In this document: piece by piece, positions 4,643 to 18,098 of the stretch
Layout of the letters: every line of letters begins with the position of its first letter
Numbering within the stretch: the stretch's first letter is position 1
NCBI GenBank assembly: GCA_030145345.1
Contig: JAQYVT010000011.1
Coordinates: 1-55,016, forward strand
DNA from: Desulfobacterales bacterium
Lineage (GTDB): Bacteria; Desulfobacterota; Desulfobacteria; Desulfobacterales; UBA11574
Direction: 5' to 3'
Length of the DNA stretch: 55,016 nt
Program-made: the position numbers and the translations under genes
Notes under the pieces: generated by a model
Told to the model about the DNA's origin: nothing
The model's database searches: none
What the model saw: the letters and a program-made list of their open reading frames with translations, nothing else

Positions 4643-5824
4643 TTACGGTTCTTTCTCACCGGTTTTTTTATGGAATTCACAAGCTAGCATGGTGGTGACC
4701 GATACGCACGTTGCAAGGTGTTCTATAAAATTTTTAAATGTAGATGAAAGGCGATTGTGCTCTTTCTGCAGAATCTCAGGGTCAATTTTGTTTACTTTGA
4801 GATCCTCTGAGGCGAAGACCGAAGCTTGATAAGGTTCTTGCCCTAAATCAAGAAACGAGACATTGCCGAAAAAATCTCCGGAATGAAGATTCGCCAATGG
4901 CACATAACCGTTTTCAGTGTGTCGGACAATATGGGCTTCCCCTTCCGTGATTTGATATAAATCCGTTTCGCTGTCACCCTGTGTAATTAACTGATTTTTA
5001 CCGTTAATATAGTCTTCGATACGAATCTTTTTCAGGTGGATGTTAACCGCCATATCGGTGACCTGTTTTAACCGCTTGTCAAGACTGATTGCAAGGCTTC
5101 TAAAGGGGTTGGACATTCTCAAAAAGTCGATGGATAGACGCCGCGAGTCGAGTACGCCCAACTGAACATTATCCACTGCACGAATTGCAGCGCTTCGAAC
5201 AGTTCCTTCCAACAATAAAAATGAAGCAATGCTCCCGATAAATGCACCTTCACCGATTCTGAGTATTTTTAAAGGGCCCTGAGGCGTTTCCCTGATAATT
5301 TCTGCCACACCTTCAAGTATTACCCATAACCAGCCGCCATGTTTTCCTTGGGCGACGATCTTGTTGCCGGCACGAGCCTCTTCTTCATCGACCACATACG
5401 AATAATCGATAAGCGGCCCTTTTATAATGGGCAGTGTCGATTCTTTTTTTGAAGAACTTTTTTTCTTAGCGGGGAATGATACAGGGCCCAATCGTTCTAT
5501 CTGTCCGTCATCCAGCATGCTTAAACAGTCAAGAATAATTTGCATCCGGCTCTTTTTAATAACATTTTTGCGGCGAATATCTTCTTCACTGAATTCAAAT
5601 TCGCCATCCACCCAACCAAAAAGTGCGTTAACAGCATCAAGGCCGCTCAAGGGTCCTGCCAACGCATTAACAGGATTGCCATTGATGAAATATATTAAAC
5701 CCGGTTCCTGAGCATATTTACTCCGAATGCGCAAAATACCGGTACTTGAATTTGAGCCGAGGAGTTGCAGAACATCGCCCAAACTCAGAAAGTCCATATT
5801 ACCGGCTAGAACAAAATCACCCAT
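4643..5824 (-). CDS. DUF4388 (PATAN-like) plus two cyclic-nucleotide-binding-fold domains
   Basis: Regulatory protein of 393 residues. Residues about 1-85 form a DUF4388 domain (LAGNMDFLSLGDVLQLLGSN, then STGILRIRS and the GLIYFINGNPVNAL strand), a scaffold often found with bacterial small GTPases and PilZ proteins. Two cNMP-binding folds follow at roughly 140-250 and 270-370. Both look degenerate in the phosphate-binding cassette: the first has FIGSIASFLLLEGTVRSA, with Ser for the usual Glu; the second has FFGNVSFLDLGQEPYQAS, with neither the Glu nor the Arg. They may no longer bind cAMP or cGMP. The start ATG is 9 bp after the MglA-like GTPase stop, implying co-translation and a shared pathway. 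Confidence 0.8.
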   Translation of the reverse strand: MGDFVLAGNMDFLSLGDVLQLLGSNSSTGILRIRSKYAQEPGLIYFINGNPVNALAGPLSGLDAVNALFGWVDGEFEFSEEDIRRKNVIKKSRMQIILDCLSMLDDGQIERLGPVSFPAKKKSSSKKESTLPIIKGPLIDYSYVVDEEEARAGNKIVAQGKHGGWLWVILEGVAEIIRETPQGPLKILRIGEGAFIGSIASFLLLEGTVRSAAIRAVDNVQLGVLDSRRLSIDFLRMSNPFRSLAISLDKRLKQVTDMAVNIHLKKIRIEDYINGKNQLITQGDSETDLYQITEGEAHIVRHTENGYVPLANLHSGDFFGNVSFLDLGQEPYQASVFASEDLKVNKIDPEILQKEHNRLSSTFKNFIEHLATCVSVTTMLACEFHKKTGEKEP

Positions 5825-5833
5825 TTATACTAT

Positions 5834-6448
5834 CTAACGTCCTAATTGTAAATTTTTTCTAAATGATACCAATGTTAACTTCAGGCATTCCTTTAAAGTT
5901 GCCCCAACGCCCTGGCCAATAATTGCACTGGCTGGAAAAGAAGGGACTTTGAGCTGTCTGTTTAAATCCTTCTCCATCTGTTCAACGGACATAATCGGGA
6001 AGCCCTGTCCAGCGAGGTCCCGCTTGTTATGCTGCATAACAAGCGGGATTTTAAAAATGTTAAGGCCATATTCTTTTAAATTATGTTGCAGGTCTTTCAA
6101 GGAGACCATGTTTTTTTCGCGTCTGACCGCCAGTGAATCGGCGACAAAAATAACACCGTCAACGCCTTTTAAAACCAGTTTTCTGGTAGATCGGTATTGA
6201 ACCTGGCCGGGAACGGTATACACTTGAACTTTTATATCAAAGCCTTTTATCTTCCCTAGTCCAATGGGAAGGAAATCAAAAAAAAGGGTCCGATCCCCTT
6301 CAGTATCAATCGAGACCATCTCACCGACGACCTGTTTCTTGAAGGTCTTAAAAATGTATTCCATATTGGTTGTTTTGCCGCATCTTCCAGGCCCGTAATA
6401 GACAATTTTGCACTCGATCTCCCTTTTTTTAAAATTAAAAATAGCCAT
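5834..6448 (-). CDS. MglA-like small Ras-family GTPase (copy 1)
   Basis: Cytoplasmic G-protein switch of 204 residues, the normal MglA size. Motifs in order: P-loop GPGRCGKT, the switch-I region around DTEGDRTLFFDFLP, TVPGQ for the DxxG position (Asp replaced, as in MglA proteins), HNKRD for NKxD, and SA near ASAIIGQG. In Myxococcus and relatives MglA sets the pole for type IV pili and gliding. It is followed 9 bp later by the DUF4388/CNB gene and preceded by a TPR gene. A second copy at 49252 shares the same N-terminal pattern and lies before a TPR-PilB gene. I see no MglB (Roadblock) activator gene in the window. Confidence 0.88.
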   Translation of the reverse strand: MAIFNFKKREIECKIVYYGPGRCGKTTNMEYIFKTFKKQVVGEMVSIDTEGDRTLFFDFLPIGLGKIKGFDIKVQVYTVPGQVQYRSTRKLVLKGVDGVIFVADSLAVRREKNMVSLKDLQHNLKEYGLNIFKIPLVMQHNKRDLAGQGFPIMSVEQMEKDLNRQLKVPSFPASAIIGQGVGATLKECLKLTLVSFRKNLQLGR

Positions 6449-8986: not shown

Positions 8987-10993
8987 TTATTTTAAAACCA
9001 GGTCTATGACCTCCGCCAATTCGTCAATGGTGATAATATTCAAATCTTTTTTAACATCTTCAGCAATATCTTTGATGTCGGCTTCGTTTTTGGCAGGAAA
9101 AACCACCGATTTTACCCCAGCCCTGTGAGCTGCAAGAACTTTTTCTTTTACGCCGCCCACAGGAAGAATTCTGCCGCTTAAAGTCAATTCACCTGTCAGT
9201 GCGACGTCCCTTTTGCAGGGACGCTCCGTCAGCAAAGAAATCAGCGCAACGGCGATGGTCAGGCCAGCTGACGGGCCGTCTTTGGGGATAGCGCCTGCTG
9301 GCACGTGAATATGGATGTCGTGCGCTTCGAATATGTTTTCAGAAATATTTATTAACTTGGCATGGCTGCGGATATAGCTCATGGCTGCCTGAGCGGATTC
9401 TTTCATCACATCACCCAATGAACCGGTTAAAATGAGATTCCCCTTCCCCTTCATTTTTGCGGCTTCGATGAATATAATCTGCCCGCCCGCCTCGGTCCAT
9501 GCCAGCCCGGTGGTTACACCGATTCGTTCTTGTGCTTCAGCGACTTCAAAATAAAACTTTCTGGGCCCCAGGAGGTTCTCTACCATTTCAGGAGTGATCA
9601 TGGTTGCCGGGCCTGTTTTTTTCTTGCGCAAGGTTTCACGGGCGATTTTGCGGCAAATGGAAGCGATCTGACGCTTAAGATTTCTCAAACCTGCTTCCCG
9701 GGTGTATTCTCTGATGATCTTGTGGATTGCCTCTGAAGTAAAAACAGGGGGGGTGTCGGAAAGTCCGGCTTCTTCGATTTCTTTGGGTATTAAATAGTGC
9801 GTCGCGATTTTTTCTTTTTCTTCTTCCGTATACCCCAGCAGGGTAATCACCTCCAGCCGGTCCAGAAGCGGTCCGGGAATCAAATCCAGGGCATTTGCAG
9901 TGGCGATGAACATCACGCGAGACAGGTCAAACGGAACATCCAGATAATGGTCCACAAAATGCGTATTCTGTTCGGGATCGAGGACCTCCAGCAGTGCTGC
10001 GGCGGGATCTCCTTTAAAGTCTCTGCCGATTTTATCGATTTCATCGAGCATAATCACCGGATTTTTCGTTTCCGTACGGCGAATTTCCTGAATGATCCTC
10101 CCGGGCAACGCACCCACATAGCTTTTGCGATGTCCCCTTATCTCTGCCTCGTCTTTCATTCCGGCCAATGATATGCGGACGAATTTTCGTTCCAAACCCC
10201 TGGCAATGGACATTCCCAAAGATGTTTTTCCGGTCCCCGGCGGTCCGGCAAAACAGAGCACCGGGCCTTTGGGCTCCAGACGAACCTTTTTCTTATAGAG
10301 TGCTTTCTGAATGGTTGATCGGATTTCATCGAGCTTTAACGGTTTCGTCAGATAATGGTACGATCCCTTTTTCATGGCTTCAATGGCCGTAGACACCGTG
10401 GCGTATCCGGTGATGATAATCACTTCGGTACTTGGATTAACGTTTTTGGCTTTTTCAAGAACCGCCATCCCATCAACTTTGCCCATTTTAAGATCCGTGA
10501 CAATAACATCGAAGGCGCTTTTTTCCAAAAATTTCAAGGCTTCTGATCCGTTGGAAGCGGTATTGACATGATAGCCTTCTTTTTTAAAAACATGCTCGAG
10601 ATTCTGGCGGGTAATTTTTTCATCATCCACCACCAGTATTTTGTGCTGGCTTGACATCTTTAATACTCTGACGGAAAGATGCTCCAGAATCCGGTCTTTT
10701 ATTTTGGCCAGTCCAAAATGATCTTCATTGAGAATCGACTCGGCCCGTTTAATATCGAGATTGTCATCCGTCATTTTGTTCCAGGGGAGACTCACCAGAT
10801 AATCGATATAGTTGATGCCGATGGTATATTCAGCACTTGAGGGCGACGTTTTGGTCAGTCGCTCTATTTCTTTAACCGCGACTTTTTCCACCGGTACGGA
10901 CATCTTGGCTTTTTGAACTTCTTCTTTTAATTCCTCAAGCTCCGATGGCAGTTCCTTTATTTGTCCTTTTTCTTTTTTAAATATGCGCATCAT
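8987..10993 (-). CDS. lon: Lon protease with inserted response-regulator receiver domain, lacking the N-terminal LON domain
   Basis: ATP-dependent serine protease of 668 residues with unusual architecture. Residues about 10-112 match the helical hairpin that precedes the ATPase in normal Lon (YIDYLVSLPWNK, DHFGLAKIKDRILEHL). Residues about 116-236 are a complete CheY-like receiver: VVDDE acidic pair D123/D124, phospho-acceptor D167 in VTDLKM, T195 in IITGYA and K217 in TKPL. Lon then resumes with KGPVLCFAGPPGTGKTSLG (Walker A K256), VIMLDEIDK (D317/E318), and the protease domain with catalytic S575 in KDGPSAG and K618 in VGGVKEKVL, 43 residues apart as in E. coli Lon. The roughly 200-residue LON substrate-recognition domain is absent. 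The receiver closely resembles that of the activator at 16725. The gene diverges from a sigma-54 operon. All catalytic residues are present, so it should be active; phospho-control is inferred. Confidence 0.93.
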   Translation of the reverse strand: MMRIFKKEKGQIKELPSELEELKEEVQKAKMSVPVEKVAVKEIERLTKTSPSSAEYTIGINYIDYLVSLPWNKMTDDNLDIKRAESILNEDHFGLAKIKDRILEHLSVRVLKMSSQHKILVVDDEKITRQNLEHVFKKEGYHVNTASNGSEALKFLEKSAFDVIVTDLKMGKVDGMAVLEKAKNVNPSTEVIIITGYATVSTAIEAMKKGSYHYLTKPLKLDEIRSTIQKALYKKKVRLEPKGPVLCFAGPPGTGKTSLGMSIARGLERKFVRISLAGMKDEAEIRGHRKSYVGALPGRIIQEIRRTETKNPVIMLDEIDKIGRDFKGDPAAALLEVLDPEQNTHFVDHYLDVPFDLSRVMFIATANALDLIPGPLLDRLEVITLLGYTEEEKEKIATHYLIPKEIEEAGLSDTPPVFTSEAIHKIIREYTREAGLRNLKRQIASICRKIARETLRKKKTGPATMITPEMVENLLGPRKFYFEVAEAQERIGVTTGLAWTEAGGQIIFIEAAKMKGKGNLILTGSLGDVMKESAQAAMSYIRSHAKLINISENIFEAHDIHIHVPAGAIPKDGPSAGLTIAVALISLLTERPCKRDVALTGELTLSGRILPVGGVKEKVLAAHRAGVKSVVFPAKNEADIKDIAEDVKKDLNIITIDELAEVIDLVLK

Positions 10994-11092: not shown

Positions 11093-11107
11093 GTTACAAT
11101 CTGCAAC
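11093..11107. promoter_or_regulatory. Upstream activator palindrome U1 (distal, operon 1)
   Basis: GTTACAATCTGCAAC, fitting RTTRCA-N3-TGYAAC. It starts 185 bp before the GG of the sigma-54 promoter at 11277. It is identical to site U3 at 12834 except for the first base. It is also about 100 bp before the divergent lon start, so it could influence lon. Confidence 0.7.
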
Positions 11108-11180
11108 GAGGCGTTCTTTTTTTGCAATACAATATAACATATTAATATAAAAAGATATTATTTTAGCTCCTCAAAGAAGC

Positions 11181-11195
11181 ATTGCAAATTGTAAC
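11181..11195. promoter_or_regulatory. Upstream activator palindrome U2 (proximal, operon 1)
   Basis: ATTGCAAATTGTAAC, fitting RTTRCA-N3-TGYAAC. It starts 97 bp before the GG of the sigma-54 promoter, the same distance as U4 in the second operon. It starts 88 bp from U1, close to eight helical turns. It is a likely binding site for the NtrC-type activator encoded at 16725. Confidence 0.7.
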
Positions 11196-11276
11196 TATTC
11201 TTTCACAATTTCGGCCTCACACCATCTGTGATATTTAAACAATATTATCAATATCATAGCGTTAATTTGGCATTAT

Positions 11277-11292
11277 TGGCACAGGAGTTGCT
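11277..11292 (+). promoter_or_regulatory. Sigma-54 promoter for the TFAEAGE operon
   Basis: TGGCAC-N5-TTGCT with GG at 11278-11279 and GC at 11290-11291, exactly the GG-N10-GC spacing of -24/-12 promoters and nearly full consensus. Transcription would begin near 11303, about 40 bp before the first ATG at 11344. Two activator palindromes lie upstream. Confidence 0.85.
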
Positions 11293-11343
11293 CTATCAAT
11301 GGTCAAAGGCAACAAACAAATCGCACAAAGGAGGGATTCAGCC

Positions 11344-11520
11344 ATGTTTAAATTCAAAGAGACTTTCGACAGATTGATGGTGGCAATTACCTTTGCCCAA
11401 GCCAATGAACATGGGCTTGCGCTCGATGTCTTACATGACCGACCGGAAAGGGACAGCCGGAAAAGGGTCGATGCCCATATTCGACGTAGCGAAGAGACCC
11501 GACCGCAGATGCGCATTTAA
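11344..11520 (+). CDS. 58-residue protein with TFAQANE motif
   Basis: Small basic protein, first gene of a sigma-54 operon. The ATG at 11344 has a strong AAAGGAGGG ribosome site; an upstream in-frame ATG at 11299 would lie before the likely transcription start and is rejected. Residues about 13-30 read VAITFAQANEHGLALDVL, closely matching a motif in both genes that follow (AATFAEAGEHGTALDIM and AITFAEAGESEYAMETM). The C-terminal half is rich in Arg, Asp and Glu and has no recognised domain. It has no membrane segment. The function is unknown; the shared motif suggests that it binds the same partner as the two Usp-like proteins, or forms complexes with them. Confidence 0.8.
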   Translation: MFKFKETFDRLMVAITFAQANEHGLALDVLHDRPERDSRKRVDAHIRRSEETRPQMRI

Positions 11521-11548
11521 CCGGGCCGATGGGTAAGAGGGGATAAAA

Positions 11549-12055
11549 ATGAAAAAAGTCTTATTGGCCATAGACGGTATGACACCCGACCGAAAGACAT
11601 TTCGCTACGCGGTTGCACTTTGCATGCGAATCAGGGCGGAGTTGAGCATATTTCAGATTATCAGGCCACAGTATTATCGAGAATATAGAAAAAAAATCCG
11701 AAAGAAAGGCTTGCTCGCGAGAAAATTTGTGGAAGGGTCCATGGTGGCGGCCACCTTTGCCGAAGCCGGTGAACATGGGACCGCTTTGGATATCATGGCC
11801 GAGGCCTCAAAGGAAATCAGACGTCTTTTGCAGGAATCCGAAGAAGCAGGCGTTCATTGTCATTTTTCGATCAAGTCGGGGAATCCCGAAAAGGAGATTG
11901 TCAATTACGTAAACGACCATCGGAACGTTGTTTTGACCATCTACGATGTTTCTGATCAAGGTGCCGATCAAAACGCCAGCAATTCAAAAAAGAAAAATGA
12001 ACTCGCAAAAATAACAAAAGGATTATCCGTTCCCCTGGTCACGGTTCACACATAG
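11549..12055 (+). CDS. UspA-like protein carrying the TFAEAGE motif
   Basis: Protein of 168 residues with a universal-stress-protein-like fold: N-terminal strand KKVLLAIDG, a helix TFRYAVALCMRIRAELSIF, and a C-terminal strand pair VVLTIYDVSDQG...VPLVTVHT. The usual GxxG-x9-G(S/T) ATP-binding signature is not evident, so it may be a non-ATP-binding type. Residues 67-83 (AATFAEAGEHGTALDIM) are the repeated operon motif, here inserted inside the Usp fold between the first half and the HCHFSIKSGNPEKEIV region. It starts 28 bp after the previous gene, with GAGGGG about 6 bases before the ATG. Its likely role is stress or transport regulation in the sigma-54 regulon; the specific ligand is unknown. 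Confidence 0.78.
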   Translation: MKKVLLAIDGMTPDRKTFRYAVALCMRIRAELSIFQIIRPQYYREYRKKIRKKGLLARKFVEGSMVAATFAEAGEHGTALDIMAEASKEIRRLLQESEEAGVHCHFSIKSGNPEKEIVNYVNDHRNVVLTIYDVSDQGADQNASNSKKKNELAKITKGLSVPLVTVHT

Positions 12056-12099
12056 AAACCAATAGAAAAAAATAAAGAGAACAGAGAAGGAGATAGAAA

Positions 12100-12657
12100 A
12101 TGGCTGGAATTTTTGGAAGAATCAAACAGAAGTTAAGTAGAGCCGGTAATAAAATGGAAAAGTATCAGGAGGCGATCACCTTTGCCGAAGCCGGCGAATC
12201 CGAATATGCCATGGAGACAATGGCGGAACAAAAAGAAGAGCAAGTACCCACAAAACTACTGGTTATGGGCAGAGAAAGCACTTTTTCAAAGGAAATCATC
12301 GACTATGCTCTGGAAATGGCGCAGCGGATGTCCTATGATATTCTGGCCTTCAATACTGCTCCTTTGTCCTGCGAAACATTCAAGCTCTTTTCGTCTTCTC
12401 ACAATCAGGTCTGTGAAGAATTCAAGAGCATGTCTGAAAAAAATGCCGCTTTATTTCAGGAAGCTGCTGCTGAAAAAGGGATCCATTTTGACCACATCGT
12501 GATGTTCAGCGAGCCGGAAGAGGCGCTGGAATCCATCACCAAAGAACACAGGGATATCGCTTTTGTGGTTTCGGAAACGGTGGAGGATCGTAGTGAAAGC
12601 AGAATAGAAGAAGGTGAACGACTCCGCACCAATCTTTTCGTTTATTCCATGGTGTAA
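12100..12657 (+). CDS. Usp-like protein with N-terminal TFAEAGE motif
   Basis: Protein of 185 residues, last gene of the operon, with an AAGGAGAT ribosome site. An amphipathic N-terminus (MAGIFGRIKQKLSRAGNKME) leads into AITFAEAGESEYAMETM at residues 25-41. The rest, from about 51, resembles a Usp domain: TKLLVMGRESTFSKEIIDYA, helix LEMAQRMSYDILAF, and a last strand DIAFVVSETV...RLRTNLFVYSM. It lacks a clear ATP-binding signature. In the preceding gene the motif is internal; here it precedes the domain, so the motif behaves as a transferable unit. A perfect 13-bp terminator follows 115 bp downstream, ending the operon before the transporter unit. Confidence 0.75.
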   Translation: MAGIFGRIKQKLSRAGNKMEKYQEAITFAEAGESEYAMETMAEQKEEQVPTKLLVMGRESTFSKEIIDYALEMAQRMSYDILAFNTAPLSCETFKLFSSSHNQVCEEFKSMSEKNAALFQEAAAEKGIHFDHIVMFSEPEEALESITKEHRDIAFVVSETVEDRSESRIEEGERLRTNLFVYSMV

Positions 12658-12772
12658 GGGGCCATTTTAGTAGTCATGGTGCCGGTTTTTTATGATCCAA
12701 AATTGCCGGCAATAGCCGCTGATGGATGACGAATCATCAGAAAACCCAAGTCCGTAGACCGCATATCATCCG

Positions 12773-12811
12773 AAATCCGGCCTTTGTGAAAAGGCCGGAT
12801 TTTCTTTTTTT
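12773..12811 (+). terminator. Intrinsic terminator, perfect 13-bp stem with GTGA tetraloop
   Basis: AAATCCGGCCTTT (12773-12785) and AAAGGCCGGATTT (12790-12802) pair perfectly around a GTGA loop (GNRA class), followed by a T-run. It ends the first sigma-54 operon and isolates the second. Confidence 0.92.
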
Positions 12812-12833
12812 ACCGCTTGTCTCACCGCAGGAT

Positions 12834-12848
12834 ATTACAATCTGCAAC
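12834..12848. promoter_or_regulatory. Upstream activator palindrome U3 (distal, operon 2)
   Basis: ATTACAATCTGCAAC, fitting RTTRCA-N3-TGYAAC and differing from U1 by one base. It begins 183 bp before the GG of the second sigma-54 promoter. An extra half-site TCTGCAAC is seen at 12861-12868. Confidence 0.7.
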
Positions 12849-12919
12849 ACCCTTTTCTTTTCTGCAACACCACATAACTGAATGTATTAATTGCACTTCA
12901 AGGTTTAGGTTTTAAATGT

Positions 12920-12934
12920 ATTGCATTTTGCAAC
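12920..12934. promoter_or_regulatory. Upstream activator palindrome U4 (proximal, operon 2)
   Basis: ATTGCATTTTGCAAC, fitting RTTRCA-N3-TGYAAC. It begins exactly 97 bp before the GG of the second sigma-54 promoter, as U2 does in the first operon, and 86 bp after U3. Confidence 0.7.
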
Positions 12935-13015
12935 ACCGGGTTTATGCATTTTGTCAATGCTCTAAATCTATTTTTTTCCAACAATGTCAATAAGATATAT
13001 TACGATTGGTGAAGT

Positions 13016-13031
13016 TGGCACGAATGATGCT
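13016..13031 (+). promoter_or_regulatory. Sigma-54 promoter for the transporter operon
   Basis: TGGCACG-N4-ATGCT with GG at 13017-13018 and GC at 13029-13030, giving the required 10-base spacing. The -24 element is full consensus; the -12 element has one change. Transcription should start near 13042, about 58 bp before the microprotein ATG. Confidence 0.82.
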
Positions 13032-13099: not shown

Positions 13100-13186
13100 A
13101 TGGATACACATTTTATTTTCGGCCTGGTGCTGGTCGCTGTTGCTTTTGGGTTATGTTTTAAGTTTAGAAAAAATAAAAAGGAATGA
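13100..13186 (+). CDS. 28-residue single-pass membrane microprotein
   Basis: ATG at 13100 with a strong GGAGGGAGA ribosome site directly upstream, ending TGA at 13186. The peptide starts MDTHF, has one hydrophobic stretch IFGLVLVAVAFGLCF long enough to cross the membrane, and ends in a basic tail KFRKNKKE, predicting a cytoplasmic C-terminus. It is the first gene after a sigma-54 promoter and lies just before the SLC13 transporter. This recalls small membrane subunits that assist transporters, such as KdpF or similar peptides. That comparison is inference; no family is recognised. Confidence 0.65.
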   Translation: MDTHFIFGLVLVAVAFGLCFKFRKNKKE

Positions 13187-13254
13187 CAGGTTGATAACCA
13201 GGCAATTTTATGGACCATGCGAGTACACGAGGAACAGAAAGGAATATTTTAGCA

Positions 13255-15069
13255 ATGACACCTGAAATGATTTTGACCATGATCGTACTTGGTTTTGCAA
13301 TCGTTCTGTTTATTTTTGAATGGGTTCGCGTTGATGTTGTGGGGATCATCATGATGGTTTTGCTTCCCCTTATCGGTTTGGTAACACCCAAAGAAGCATT
13401 TCTCGGGTTGAGCAGTAACGCCGTCGTCTCCATCATGGCAGTGATTATCATCGGCGCCGGTCTTGACAAAACCGGCGTGATGAACAAAGTGTCCGGACCC
13501 ATCGTCAAACTGGCGGGAAACAGCGAAAAGAAAGTGATTACCCTGATATCCGGCACCGTAGGCATAATTTCGAGCATGATGCAGAACATCGGCGCCGCGG
13601 CCCTATTCCTGCCGGCTGCCCAGCGGATCGGCAAAAGAATGGGGGTGCCGGTGTCCCGTATTCTGATGCCCATGGGGTTCTGTGCCATTATCGGCGGAAC
13701 CATCACGCTGGTGGGTGCCAGTCCCACGATTCTGTTAAATGATTTGATGGTTCTTGGCGGGAAAAAGCTGGCGCCCTTCGGTCTTTTCACCCAAACCCCC
13801 ATTGGCATCTGCCTTCTTGCCAGTGCTATCGTCTATTTTATCCTTTTCGGCAAATTTGTCCTTCCGGCCGCAGAAGGTGAAGCGGAAAAAGGCGTTACGG
13901 CGGTGTTGATGGAAGCCTATGAGGGACTTGAACATACATTTGAAATCCATATTCCCGATAATTATGATGGCCCGAAAAGCCTGGAGGAGCTGGGCATCAG
14001 ACCCAAGTTCCTGGTGACCCTGGTGGCCATAAGCTTTACGTCGGAAAATGAAAAAACGTTTGTGCCGAAAAGCAGCGATACGATTTCTCCGGGCGATGAC
14101 ATTGCCGTTATCGGGCAAATAAAAATGGTTCATATGCTGGCCGAAGAATACGGATGGGAAGTTAAAGACGGCCTGGATATTTTCGGAGAGAGCCTTGCCG
14201 TGATTAATGCCGGTATGGCGGAAACGGTGGTTTCTCCCCGGTCTGAATTGATCGGAAAAACCATGAGCCAGCTTAATTTTAAAGAATTGTACGGTGTAAA
14301 TCCGGTGGCGCTGTTTACCGGTAATAAAATAATTTACAGCAATTTAACCCATATCCGGCTCCAAATGGGCGACACCCTGTTACTTCAAGGACCTTGGGAG
14401 AAATTTCATATTTTAAGAAATCAGCCTCAGCCACGCGCGCTCACCTTTGCCACGGCCCTGGAAGGAGAAATCATGCGCCCTGAAAAGGCCAAGCTGGCGG
14501 TGATCTGGCTTGCTATCGCATTAATGCAGATTATCGTTTTTAAAATTCAGCTTTCGGTGGCCCTCATGTCCGGAGCCCTCGGCATGATCATTACCGGTGT
14601 GCTCTCGGTGGATGAAGCGTATCGCGCTGTGGACTGGATGACGGTTTTCCTCTTGGCCGGACTGATTCCTTTAGGTATGGCCTTTGAAAAAACCGGAACT
14701 GCTGCTTTTATCGCCCAATTCGTATTGGGGTTGCTGGGCCATCCTTCTCCCATTGTACTCCTGGCGGCGGTGGGTGTTATGACCTCTTTTTTCACCCTGG
14801 TGATTTCCAATGTGGGTGCAACGGTTTTGCTGGTTCCGTTGTGCATGAACATGGCGGTCATGGCCGGCGGTGATCCGCGAATGGCCGCACTGGTTGTGGG
14901 GTTGTCCGCGTCCAACACATTTGTCTTGCCGACACATCAGGTCAATGCGCTCATTATGAGGCCCGGGGGGTATCGAACCGTAGACTATGCCAAGGCGGGT
15001 GTTGTGATGACCGCCCTCTTTTTAGCGGTGGAGTTGACCATACTCTATTTCTTTTATGGAATTCAATAA
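13255..15069 (+). CDS. SLC13/DASS-type transporter with central TrkA-C (RCK_C) domains
   Basis: Inner-membrane ion-coupled anion transporter of about 604 residues (619 if ATG 13210 is used; 13255 has an upstream AAAGGA and starts just before the first helix). The N-terminal membrane half includes SNAVVSIMAVIIIGAGLDKTG and MQNIGAAALFLPAA, with the duplicated family motif NIGAAA; its C-terminal counterpart is SNVGATVLLVPL. The middle (about 215-400) is a soluble insert with two TrkA-C-like units, marked by PGDDIAVIGQ and MGDTLLLQG, typical of bacterial SLC13 proteins annotated for sulfate or dicarboxylates. The substrate is not determinable. It sits in the sigma-54 regulon with the Usp-like operon and before the kinase pair, so its expression is probably set by that phosphorelay. 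Confidence 0.88.
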   Translation: MTPEMILTMIVLGFAIVLFIFEWVRVDVVGIIMMVLLPLIGLVTPKEAFLGLSSNAVVSIMAVIIIGAGLDKTGVMNKVSGPIVKLAGNSEKKVITLISGTVGIISSMMQNIGAAALFLPAAQRIGKRMGVPVSRILMPMGFCAIIGGTITLVGASPTILLNDLMVLGGKKLAPFGLFTQTPIGICLLASAIVYFILFGKFVLPAAEGEAEKGVTAVLMEAYEGLEHTFEIHIPDNYDGPKSLEELGIRPKFLVTLVAISFTSENEKTFVPKSSDTISPGDDIAVIGQIKMVHMLAEEYGWEVKDGLDIFGESLAVINAGMAETVVSPRSELIGKTMSQLNFKELYGVNPVALFTGNKIIYSNLTHIRLQMGDTLLLQGPWEKFHILRNQPQPRALTFATALEGEIMRPEKAKLAVIWLAIALMQIIVFKIQLSVALMSGALGMIITGVLSVDEAYRAVDWMTVFLLAGLIPLGMAFEKTGTAAFIAQFVLGLLGHPSPIVLLAAVGVMTSFFTLVISNVGATVLLVPLCMNMAVMAGGDPRMAALVVGLSASNTFVLPTHQVNALIMRPGGYRTVDYAKAGVVMTALFLAVELTILYFFYGIQ

Positions 15070-15289: not shown

Positions 15290-16714
15290 ATGAAAATCAG
15301 TATCAGAGGGAAGATTTTTCTCGCTTTTGCTATATTTATCGGTCTTAGTGCACTGATATGGGCGCGCAGTTATTATAGCCAGTATATTCTCAATCAGAAG
15401 ATCCAGATCATTGAGAGAAAATACGATCTTTTTAATGCCATCCTGGAAGCCCGCCGGTATGAAAAAAACTATTTTTTATCCTTTGACAGAAAAAATATTG
15501 CTGAGGCCCTGGACTACATCCGTCAGGCTGAGGATATCCTTCGTAATATATTGAAAGAATACGGAAGGTACACCCTGGCCAAAAATCTCGATCAAAGGAT
15601 TACCGAACTTGTGACATACAAGGAATCTCTTGCAGATCTTATAGAACAACAGGAACAAGGACATTTGGTGACCCCTCCGGACACCATTGAGTTAATCCGA
15701 AAGCAGGGAAGAATTCTCACCAGTGAACTTGAAAAAATCGTAAAAAAGGAGAGTGAATTTACACGGGACCTGATCGGAAAATCACAGACCATTCATTTTT
15801 TGGCCCTGATACCTGTATTTATCCTTTCGGTTTCGATTGCACTTTTTTTGATCTTTAATGTCAATCGCCCATTAAAGACCATCGAGAACGCCATTACCAA
15901 AATCGCCAGTGGAGATTTTGAGAATATACCGGAAATAAAAACCGGGGATGAATTTGAATCACTGGTGGTCAGCCTCAATAACATGATAGATGAGCTGAAC
16001 AAACGGAGCAAACAACTTATACAGGCTCAGAAGCTGGCTTCATTGGGGAGACTGACCTCCGGGGTGGCCCATGAATTGAACAATCCCCTCAACAATATAT
16101 CCACATCGATTCAAATTCTCATTGAAGAAATAGAAGAAGAAGATCTGGAATTTAAAAAAGAACTGTTGATCGGTGCCGAAAAAGAAGTGGAAAGGGGAAA
16201 GGACATCGTTCGTTCGCTATTGGAATTCGCCAGAGAAAGGACTCTGACCCTAAAACAGGTATATTTTCTGGATCTGGTTAACAGTGCAATTAAACATGTC
16301 AAATCGGAGATTCCGAATAATATACGTCTTAAAGTGGAGGTGCCGGATAACATACAGGCCACTGTTGGTCTGCGTATTAGAAGCGTTATCATCAATCTTA
16401 TTACAAATGCCGTCCATGCTATTAAAGACGGTGGAGAAATTACCATCCGTGCCTATAACGAATTGGAGAAAGATGGATTTTCTTTTCAGGTGATAGACAC
16501 CGGTGAAGGGATTCCCCAAAATATCATCACAAAGATTTTTGACCCTTTTTTCACCACAAAAGAAGTCGGCAAAGGGTCAGGGCTGGGACTTTCCATCATT
16601 TACGGTATCATGGAACAACATAGCGGCAATATATCCGTTTCCAGCGAAGTCGGAAAAGGAACGACATTTACCTGTTCTTTACCATTCCATCAGCCTGGGC
16701 AACTGGAATTATAG
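15290..16714 (+). CDS. Sensor histidine kinase
   Basis: Membrane sensor kinase of 474 residues. TM1 at about 8-26, a 140-residue helical periplasmic sensor region (27-167) of four-helix character, TM2 at about 169-190, HAMP at 190-243, then HisKA with LASLGRLTSGVAHELNNPLN (phospho-acceptor H261) and HATPase_c with N-box NLITNAVHAI, DTGEGIP and GKGSGLGLSI. The gene ends 10 bp before the NtrC-type regulator, so they form a cognate pair. The upstream 220 bp show no sigma-54 site or RTTRCA palindrome, so the kinase is probably not autoregulated by its own partner. It may also phosphorylate the Lon-embedded receiver, whose sequence is close to that of the partner regulator; this is inference. Confidence 0.93.
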   Translation: MKISIRGKIFLAFAIFIGLSALIWARSYYSQYILNQKIQIIERKYDLFNAILEARRYEKNYFLSFDRKNIAEALDYIRQAEDILRNILKEYGRYTLAKNLDQRITELVTYKESLADLIEQQEQGHLVTPPDTIELIRKQGRILTSELEKIVKKESEFTRDLIGKSQTIHFLALIPVFILSVSIALFLIFNVNRPLKTIENAITKIASGDFENIPEIKTGDEFESLVVSLNNMIDELNKRSKQLIQAQKLASLGRLTSGVAHELNNPLNNISTSIQILIEEIEEEDLEFKKELLIGAEKEVERGKDIVRSLLEFARERTLTLKQVYFLDLVNSAIKHVKSEIPNNIRLKVEVPDNIQATVGLRIRSVIINLITNAVHAIKDGGEITIRAYNELEKDGFSFQVIDTGEGIPQNIITKIFDPFFTTKEVGKGSGLGLSIIYGIMEQHSGNISVSSEVGKGTTFTCSLPFHQPGQLEL

Positions 16715-16724
16715 GAAGATCATT

Positions 16725-18098
16725 GTGGAAAAAAATAATGAGATTATTCTTATTGTTGAAGACGAGGACATTGCACGTAAGAATCTCGAGCATATTCTGA
16801 TGAAAACCGGTTACGATGTCGTTTCCGTAGCCGACGGGAGCAAAGCCATCGATTTGCTTCACTCAAAGAGCTTCGACCTGGTGATCACCGATCTGAAAAT
16901 GGAAAAAGTCGACGGCATGCAGGTTTTACACAAGACCAAAGCGCTTCAGCCTTACACGGAAGTCATTATGATTACCGGCTATGCCACCATTGAAACGTCG
17001 GTTCAGGCCATGCATGACGGCGCATACTATTATATCGCCAAACCCTATAAAATCGGAGAAGTTCGCCAGATTACCAAAGAGGCGCTTTTAAAACGACGGC
17101 TTCGGCTTGAAAACATTAAACTGAAAGAAACGCTCAAAAAGCAGCGAAAGATTTCCGACATTGTCGGACAGAGCGCGGTCATAATGGATATTCAGAAAAC
17201 CATTCATCAGATTGCCCCTTCGGACATCAATGTCCTGGTCCTTGGTGAAAGCGGAACCGGCAAGGAGTTGGTCGCTCGATCTATCCATCAGCTGAGTTCC
17301 CGTTCGGAAAAAGAATTCATTGCCTTTAACTGCGGTTCGTTTGCGGAAGAGTTGATGGCCAATGAGCTGTTCGGTCATGAAAAGGATTCATTTACCGGTG
17401 CTACAAAGGCAAAGGCTGGATTGATCAAAGTGGCTGACGGCGGAACGGTGTTTCTGGATGAAATCGGGGACATGCCCCTGAGTATGCAGGTGAAGCTGCT
17501 GCGCGTCATTCAGGAAAAAGAGGTTTTGCCGGTGGGCGGCGAAACCTCCGTTCCCGTGGATGTGCGCTTCATCGCCGCCACCCATCGCGATCTCAAAGAA
17601 GATGTGGACAACGGCAATTTCCGTCAGGATCTGTTTTACCGATTAAATGTCATTGCCATAAAACTTCCCTCTCTCACCGATCGACATGGTGACATACCGC
17701 TTCTGGCACACCACTTCCTTTCTCAAAAAAATAAAACCATGAACCCAAATGTTCAAAATATTCAAAAAGAATCCATGGAATTGCTCCGTCAATACAGCTG
17801 GCCTGGGAATATCAGAGAACTGGAAAATGTTATTGAACGGGCCGTGGCCCTGGCGAAAGGCCCGGAAATAACCGTCGACGATCTGCCGGAATATATCAGC
17901 AATCTTTCGGTTGAAACCTACCGCCGGATGGATTCAGAGATGCCGACACTGGAGACGCAGGAGAAAAACTACATTAAATGGGTACTCGACAAATGTGAGG
18001 GGAATAAAACCAAAGCAGCCAAAATAATGGGTATTGACCGGGTCTCGCTCTGGAGGAAAATGAAGCGGTTTGGGATGAATGACGCGTCCAATGTTTAA
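16725..18098 (+). CDS. NtrC-family sigma-54-dependent response regulator
   Basis: Transcription activator of 457 residues from GTG 16725, chosen for the AGGAAG site 6 bases upstream and because the receiver starts at once ([12 protein letters not shown]). Receiver about 5-122 with D56 in ITDLKM; AAA+ domain about 145-375 with Walker A GESGTGKE, Walker [10 protein letters not shown] and arginine-rich [10 protein letters not shown]; Fis-type helix-turn-helix at about 410-455 ([20 protein letters not shown]). The sigma-54 contact loop reads DSFTGA rather than the usual GAFTGA; F, T, G and A are kept. It is the obvious activator of the two sigma-54 promoters upstream, through the RTTRCA-N3-TGYAAC sites. 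It is translated 10 bp after the kinase. Confidence 0.93.

Follow-up and report, generated by a model that had tools for sequence, protein, structure and literature searches.

A conserved two-palindrome sigma-54 control layout beside RR-Lon, universal stress protein and anion transporter genes in a Desulfobacterales bacterium and its phylum

The window, that is the whole stretch of 55,016 nt analyzed here (Desulfobacterales bacterium, assembly GCA_030145345.1, contig JAQYVT010000011.1, positions 1-55,016, forward strand), contains two control regions, in each of which a pair of palindromes precedes a sigma-54 promoter. This layout recurs phylum-wide beside the gene for an RR-Lon (response regulator-Lon protease) fusion, and therefore represents a real, conserved system for the control of stress and transport functions; the two-site layout is supported as a regulon signature. 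The elements of the two control regions, and the terminator between them, are the following.

11093..11107, + strand: distal palindrome, control region 1, GTTACAATCTGCAAC
11123..11138, + strand: middle element, control region 1, TGCAATACAATATAAC, resembling tandem half-sites
11181..11195, + strand: proximal palindrome, control region 1, ATTGCAAATTGTAAC
11246..11258, + strand: IHF-like sequence, TATCAATATCATA, 32 bp before the GG of promoter 1, weakly indicated
11277..11292, + strand: sigma-54 (-24/-12) promoter 1, TGGCACAGGAGTTGCT, predicted start ~11303
12772..12803, + strand: intrinsic terminator between operon 1 and control region 2, 14-bp stem, T-tail
12834..12848, + strand: distal palindrome, control region 2, ATTACAATCTGCAAC
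12863..12878, + strand: middle element, control region 2, TGCAACACCACATAAC
12920..12934, + strand: proximal palindrome, control region 2, ATTGCATTTTGCAAC
13016..13031, + strand: sigma-54 promoter 2, TGGCACGAATGATGCT, predicted start ~13042

The four 15-bp palindromes reported in the initial annotation are all found in the window sequence and fit RTTRCA-N3-TGYAAC. Both sigma-54 promoters are present as well, the intervals originally assigned to them (11277-11292 and 13016-13031) taking in one flanking base per side: the -24/-12 elements proper, 11278-11291 and 13017-13030 (TGGCACAGGAGTTGC and TGGCACGAATGATGC), are of the TGGCAC-N5-TTGC type. With the GG of GG-N10-GC at 11278 and 13017, the distances from the first base of each palindrome are as first measured: 97 bp in both regions for the proximal sites, 185 and 183 bp for the distal ones. 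At up to one mismatch, the palindrome pattern matches 10 times in the window, versus an expectation of 1.17 (sd 1.18), and 10 matches were not reached in any of 100 shuffles. Because operon 1 is closed off from control region 2 by the terminator at 12772-12803, both regions are regarded as independent units. The surrounding genes are listed below.

8987..10993, - strand: RR-Lon protease fusion; Pfam Response_reg, AAA, Lon_lid and Lon_C; TIGR00763 (lon) above cut-off
11344..11520, + strand: 58-aa gene, first of operon 1, conserved, MFKFKETFDRLMVAITFAQANEHGLALD...
11549..12055, + strand: universal stress protein (USP)-type gene, 168 aa; Pfam Usp above cut-off
12100..12657, + strand: 185-aa USP-like protein with a TFAEAGE motif, kept beside the palindrome motif in relatives
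13100..13186, + strand: 28-aa single-TM peptide gene, conserved ahead of the transporter, MDTHFIFGLVLVAVAFGLCFKFRKNKKE
13210..15069, + strand: SLC13/DASS-type anion transporter with two TrkA-C (RCK-C) domains; Pfam CitMHS and TrkA_C
15290..16714, + strand: sensor histidine kinase; HAMP, HisKA, HATPase; predicted periplasmic four-helix bundle
16728..18098, + strand: NtrC-type response regulator; receiver, AAA+ with DSFTGA loop, Fis-type HTH with IDRVSLWRK

The RR-Lon gene is divergent from control region 1, and RR-Lon genes adjoin the paired motif phylum-wide. In the fusion, the receiver domain separates the Lon N-terminal segment from the AAA+ domain; the Lon-like parts on either side align with ordinary Lons at ~52–63% identity. 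Operon 2 runs from the 28-aa peptide through the DASS-type transporter (TIGR00785 match below cut-off) and the kinase to the NtrC-type regulator; for the 185-aa USP-like protein of operon 1, no Pfam match was obtained. In other genera the same control region fronts USP genes together with a DASS or TSUP transporter, often a cytidylate-kinase-like gene, and a kinase-regulator pair is located nearby. When the sensor domain of the kinase was submitted to a structure search, the best match was NarQ, a nitrate/nitrite sensor (E 7e-4, TM 0.68): the predicted bundle fits an anion signal without proving one, and no ligand is claimed, because helical bundles match widely. Two minor features of the operons may be mentioned. 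A TFAEANEH/TFAEAGE...ALD motif is repeated in three consecutive genes of operon 1 (58 aa, USP and 185 aa) and is kept across genera, while a gene for a single-TM peptide of 26–29 aa, recalling KdpF, is found directly 5' of the DASS transporter in many genera.

The distribution of the layout was evaluated by pattern searches over the 3.57-Mb genome. The outcome favours a regulon motif, as initially proposed, over a frequent and randomly placed sequence: the strict palindrome recurs just twice more in the whole genome (reversed control: 0), and both pairs 75–105 bp apart and palindromes before a TGGCAY-type promoter at these spacings are found solely at the two window promoters. A strict site at C81:26188, located 5' of a nucleotidyltransferase-type gene and lacking a sigma-54 site, looks like chance and was discarded. 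A further single site, GTTGCAAAATGTAAC, lies 5' of a TSUP transporter gene and is kept in three species (L006:1501-1515, at C139:16330 of this genome; L010; L012), in two of which a divergent PAS-type activator is present; at C139:16330 no sigma-54 promoter was found at the usual distance, and a sigma-70-like promoter is there. This site was not counted as a member, because the whole upstream region is equally conserved and no sigma-54 site stands at the right distance. The regulon in this genome is accordingly very small, consisting of two promoters and the one doubtful single site 5' of the TSUP gene.

Within the order, 291 genomes gave 31 matches to the paired pattern, versus 3 in the reversed control. 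Almost all the inspected pairs are located either between RR-Lon and USP genes or 5' of USP-TSUP or USP-DASS operons, the latter adjoined by an RR or a kinase-RR pair. In 19 regions of the order, the two window regions included, the palindromes are 83–90 bp apart, and the proximal one precedes the GG by 94–98 bp in 17 regions and by 81 and 86 bp in the other two. Because the order-wide search imposed a preset spacing range, a blind test was performed on loci picked without the motif: 22 RR-Lon fusions from across the phylum were chosen by protein similarity, and their upstream DNA was scanned for pairs 70–110 bp apart, each site being allowed one mismatch, with Markov shuffles as control. A phylum-wide protein search was used to this end, as a scan of genome contigs with RR-Lon gave mostly ordinary Lon proteases. 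Paired palindromes were found upstream in 15 of the 22 loci, versus 0.04 of 22 in the shuffles (maximum 1), where, as in all counts over relatives, the loci are statistically non-independent. The spacing is 86–89 bp in 12 of the 15 pairs and 76 bp in three. Among the 100 positions following each of the 15 pairs, the top sigma-54-like site is conspicuous, at 91–96 bp from the proximal palindrome in 14 cases and at 80 bp in one; the shorter distances (76 and 80 bp) correspond to the usual ones minus about one helical turn. Three fusions from a collection of genome contigs fit this picture, with pair spacings of 85 bp (Desulfobacter vibrioformis, L072), 91 bp (a Desulfocurvus MAG, L073) and 88 bp (another MAG, L074). 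The pairs in L019, L020 and L031 were left out of account as products of repeats or of chance. Control region 2 is missing from one sister species (L011). The matched spacing had been judged hardly compatible with chance: this is correct for the layout, which is non-random and recurs phylum-wide, but the exact coincidence of the two 97-bp distances is a local one, within a conserved band.

A third conserved element, TGCAAY-N4/5-RTAAY, which the initial annotation had overlooked, lies between the palindromes. It is found at a fixed position in 13 of the 19 regions of the order, from several families (0.06 in shuffles), and begins 27–31 bp past the first base of the distal core. It can be read as a tandem pair of half-sites with a shared orientation, offset by roughly one turn of the helix, and may bind either the same regulator, as its third site, or another protein. 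Closer to the promoter, WATCAA is present in 9 of the 19 enhancer-promoter intervals versus 3.0 expected, all within the window's own family, several members of which carry an IHF-like sequence 31–32 bp before the GG; as a general feature, an IHF site was not upheld outside that family among the 19 regions.

The protein likely to read the palindromes is the NtrC-type regulator at 16728-18098, already indicated in the initial annotation (there at 16725) and now favored as the best candidate by recognition helix, co-occurrence and co-location, all of them correlations drawn from sequence. The recognition helix IDRVSLWRK is common to seven of the nine motif-linked regulators aligned, the other two (L152, L155) differing, and among the 32 activators examined in this genome it is found in the window regulator alone. 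Of the 25 genomes with the paired motif, 19 encode an orthologue of the regulator, versus 53 of the 266 without it (Fisher P = 2e-8, relatives again non-independent); outside the window's own family, the association has P = 8e-4. Six paired-motif genomes gave no strong match to the regulator; in three of them the motif pair itself appears to be due to chance or to repeats, and the other three may reflect assembly gaps or divergent orthologues. For 15 motif instances, the regulator gene is on the same contig, at most 12 kb away, the distances being 186 and 432 bp in one 6.3-Mb contig; in single-contig genomes, motif and orthologue are separated by 186 bp to 5.6 kb. The sigma-54 contact loop of the window regulator is DSFTGA, not GAFTGA: relatives have [DEG]AFTGA, most of them keeping AFTGA, and the other activators checked in this genome all keep G at the first position. 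The protein scores below the NCBIfam equivalog cut-offs for AtoC (442 vs 714 bits), NtrC (410 vs 558.6) and the PEP-CTERM response regulator (405 vs 502.6). Several orthologues (L295, L306-L310 and others; e.g. G217, G066, G087, G152) have a single in-frame stop codon within the aligned part, for which assembly error, a terminal stop or decay are possible explanations.

The genome contains ~37 clear sigma-54 activators, and a half-site related to the one described here serves a second, larger set of promoters; the palindromes might hence be read by another activator, such as the one acting on TTTACA-N3-TGTAAA sites or the PAS-type one beside the TSUP gene. This is improbable, as the second set is spaced differently (120–123 bp, mostly single sites) and has half-sites of A/T type, none of the 31 other activators examined has the recognition helix of the window regulator, and it is the latter that co-occurs and co-locates with the motif. 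Even less credit can be given to the palindromes being operators of a repressor or of a sigma-70 regulator, with an incidental distance to -24/-12: palindromes of this size suit repressors too, and the motif 5' of the TSUP gene accompanies a sigma-70-like promoter and no sigma-54 site, yet the sites, at ~95 and ~183 bp upstream, are well outside a polymerase footprint, and their distance to the best sigma-54 site is fixed in 14 of the 15 blind cases. Such a reading appears scarcely tenable.

The matched spacing could also have been inherited rather than selected, if one control region had arisen by recent duplication of the other. The two do share 45 bp at the distal palindrome with 78% identity (E 4e-6); elsewhere, however, only 32 of 77 and 25 of 71 positions match in register, and many families show the same geometry although the DNA in between has diverged, among them loci picked without the motif. 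Given the low identity outside the 45-bp stretch, recent duplication was rejected as a full explanation of the matched layout, and selection-free inheritance is considered very improbable. Whichever the origin, the spacing is maintained.

Each control region is thus very probably a sigma-54 enhancer-promoter unit, driven by the phosphorylated regulator encoded at 16728-18098. The histidine kinase (15290) would phosphorylate this regulator, dimers of which would occupy the two palindromes (RTTRCA-N3-TGYAAC; core GTTGC-N5-GCAAC), ~87 bp apart, and assemble into an AAA+ ring; by looping of the DNA over ~95 bp, possibly aided by IHF, the ring would remodel the sigma-54 polymerase at -24/-12. Promoter 1 would then drive the 58-aa gene and the two USP-type genes, and promoter 2 the DASS anion transporter and, by read-through, kinase and regulator, resulting in positive autoregulation; that the last two share promoter 2 is suggested by gene order only. 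Confidence in the enhancer reading is high. The nature of the signal and the role of RR-Lon are proposed with low confidence: the divergent RR-Lon would probably be a second output of this kinase, with proteins and not DNA as its targets. A broader, rather speculative extension would have one kinase govern two coupled outputs throughout the phylum, namely the regulator, on a fixed three-element enhancer, and a phosphorylation-gated Lon, removing either the regulator or the USP and transporter proteins, with fast feedback between transcription and proteolysis. Under this doubtful extension, the palindromes would be held in constant helical phase, and the middle element would host a third regulator assembly or a second protein.

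Classical NtrC-type sigma-54 enhancers, such as those of glnA and nifH, feature two upstream palindromic sites and DNA looping to -24/-12, possibly with the help of IHF. The window regions resemble them in the two palindromes upstream of -24/-12, and in the looping and IHF help proposed here. They differ in the recognition sequence, in the targets (stress and anion transport, not nitrogen), in one inter-site distance conserved over many families (76 or 83–90 bp), and in the extra conserved element.

The closest known system is the DVU3303 (RR-Lon), DVU3304 (kinase) and DVU3305 (sigma-54 regulator) set of D. vulgaris Hildenborough, proposed as a three-component stress system (PMC3333781, PMC4641369, PMC10102598); as such an RR-Lon/kinase/sigma-54 regulator system had already been proposed, the window is assigned to the same kind. 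DVU3305 is reported to bind its own operon and a USP/transporter operon, to regulate, besides its own operon, DVU3302-3298 with their UspA-type proteins, and to have a site conserved alongside the fusion in other species (PMC3333781). According to transposon fitness data, DVU3303-3305 act together and are linked to the anion transporter DVU3299 under chlorate (PMC10102598). Compared with the system as described in these reports, the window shares the RR-Lon fusion gene (8987-10993), the histidine kinase gene beside the NtrC-type regulator gene (15290-16714, 16728-18098), the sigma-54 promoters, and predicted targets comprising neighboring USP-type genes, a putative anion transporter and, as proposed above, the regulator's own operon. 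Here, unlike there, RR-Lon is divergent and the kinase-regulator pair follows the DASS transporter; the contact loop is DSFTGA, versus GAFSGA in DVU3305. RR-Lon loci of Desulfovibrionales contain GTTGC-N5-GCAAC sites, paired in L073 and, in L076, one strict plus degenerate ones, from which we infer that the window motif may be the DVU3305 motif. A second D. vulgaris cluster, DVU0539/DVU0540, with USP and PSE-transporter targets (PMC10102598), similarly combines a kinase and a sigma-54 response regulator with USP genes and an anion-type transporter; as described, it has no RR-Lon gene and a different transporter family, and the likeness is drawn without motif comparison. The control system is therefore partly known already, and the phylum-wide, fixed enhancer geometry is the addition: neither this geometry nor the middle element nor the exchange of transporter families within the same control architecture is described in the main texts, supplements aside, of PMC3333781 and PMC10102598.

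For bacteria with the RR-Lon fusion, the results define, phylum-wide and in testable form, a regulon for stress and anion transport, tying this unusual protein to a fixed enhancer architecture and making the DVU3305-type regulon predictable in uncultured relatives. The alternative spacings of 76 and 86–89 bp, about one helical turn apart amid sequence drift, represent a natural experiment on the phasing of enhancer-bound activators.

Two observations of a different order were made on the same genome. At 4643-6448 of the window, a cNMP-binding/DUF4388 protein adjoins a small Arf/Ras-like GTPase, possibly as an Mgl-type pair. Elsewhere (contigs C42, C59, C155, C181, C183; L247-L252, L255-L260), a second sigma-54 set, larger than the two-site set of the window, is marked mostly by TTTACA-N3-TGTAAA: at 11 promoters one palindrome is located 120–123 bp before the GG, two of them having another site at 192, while ~0.1 coincidences are expected for all such pairs. 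Its members lie near USP, CstA-like, formate/nitrite transporter-like, DASS-like and DsrC/TusE-like genes.
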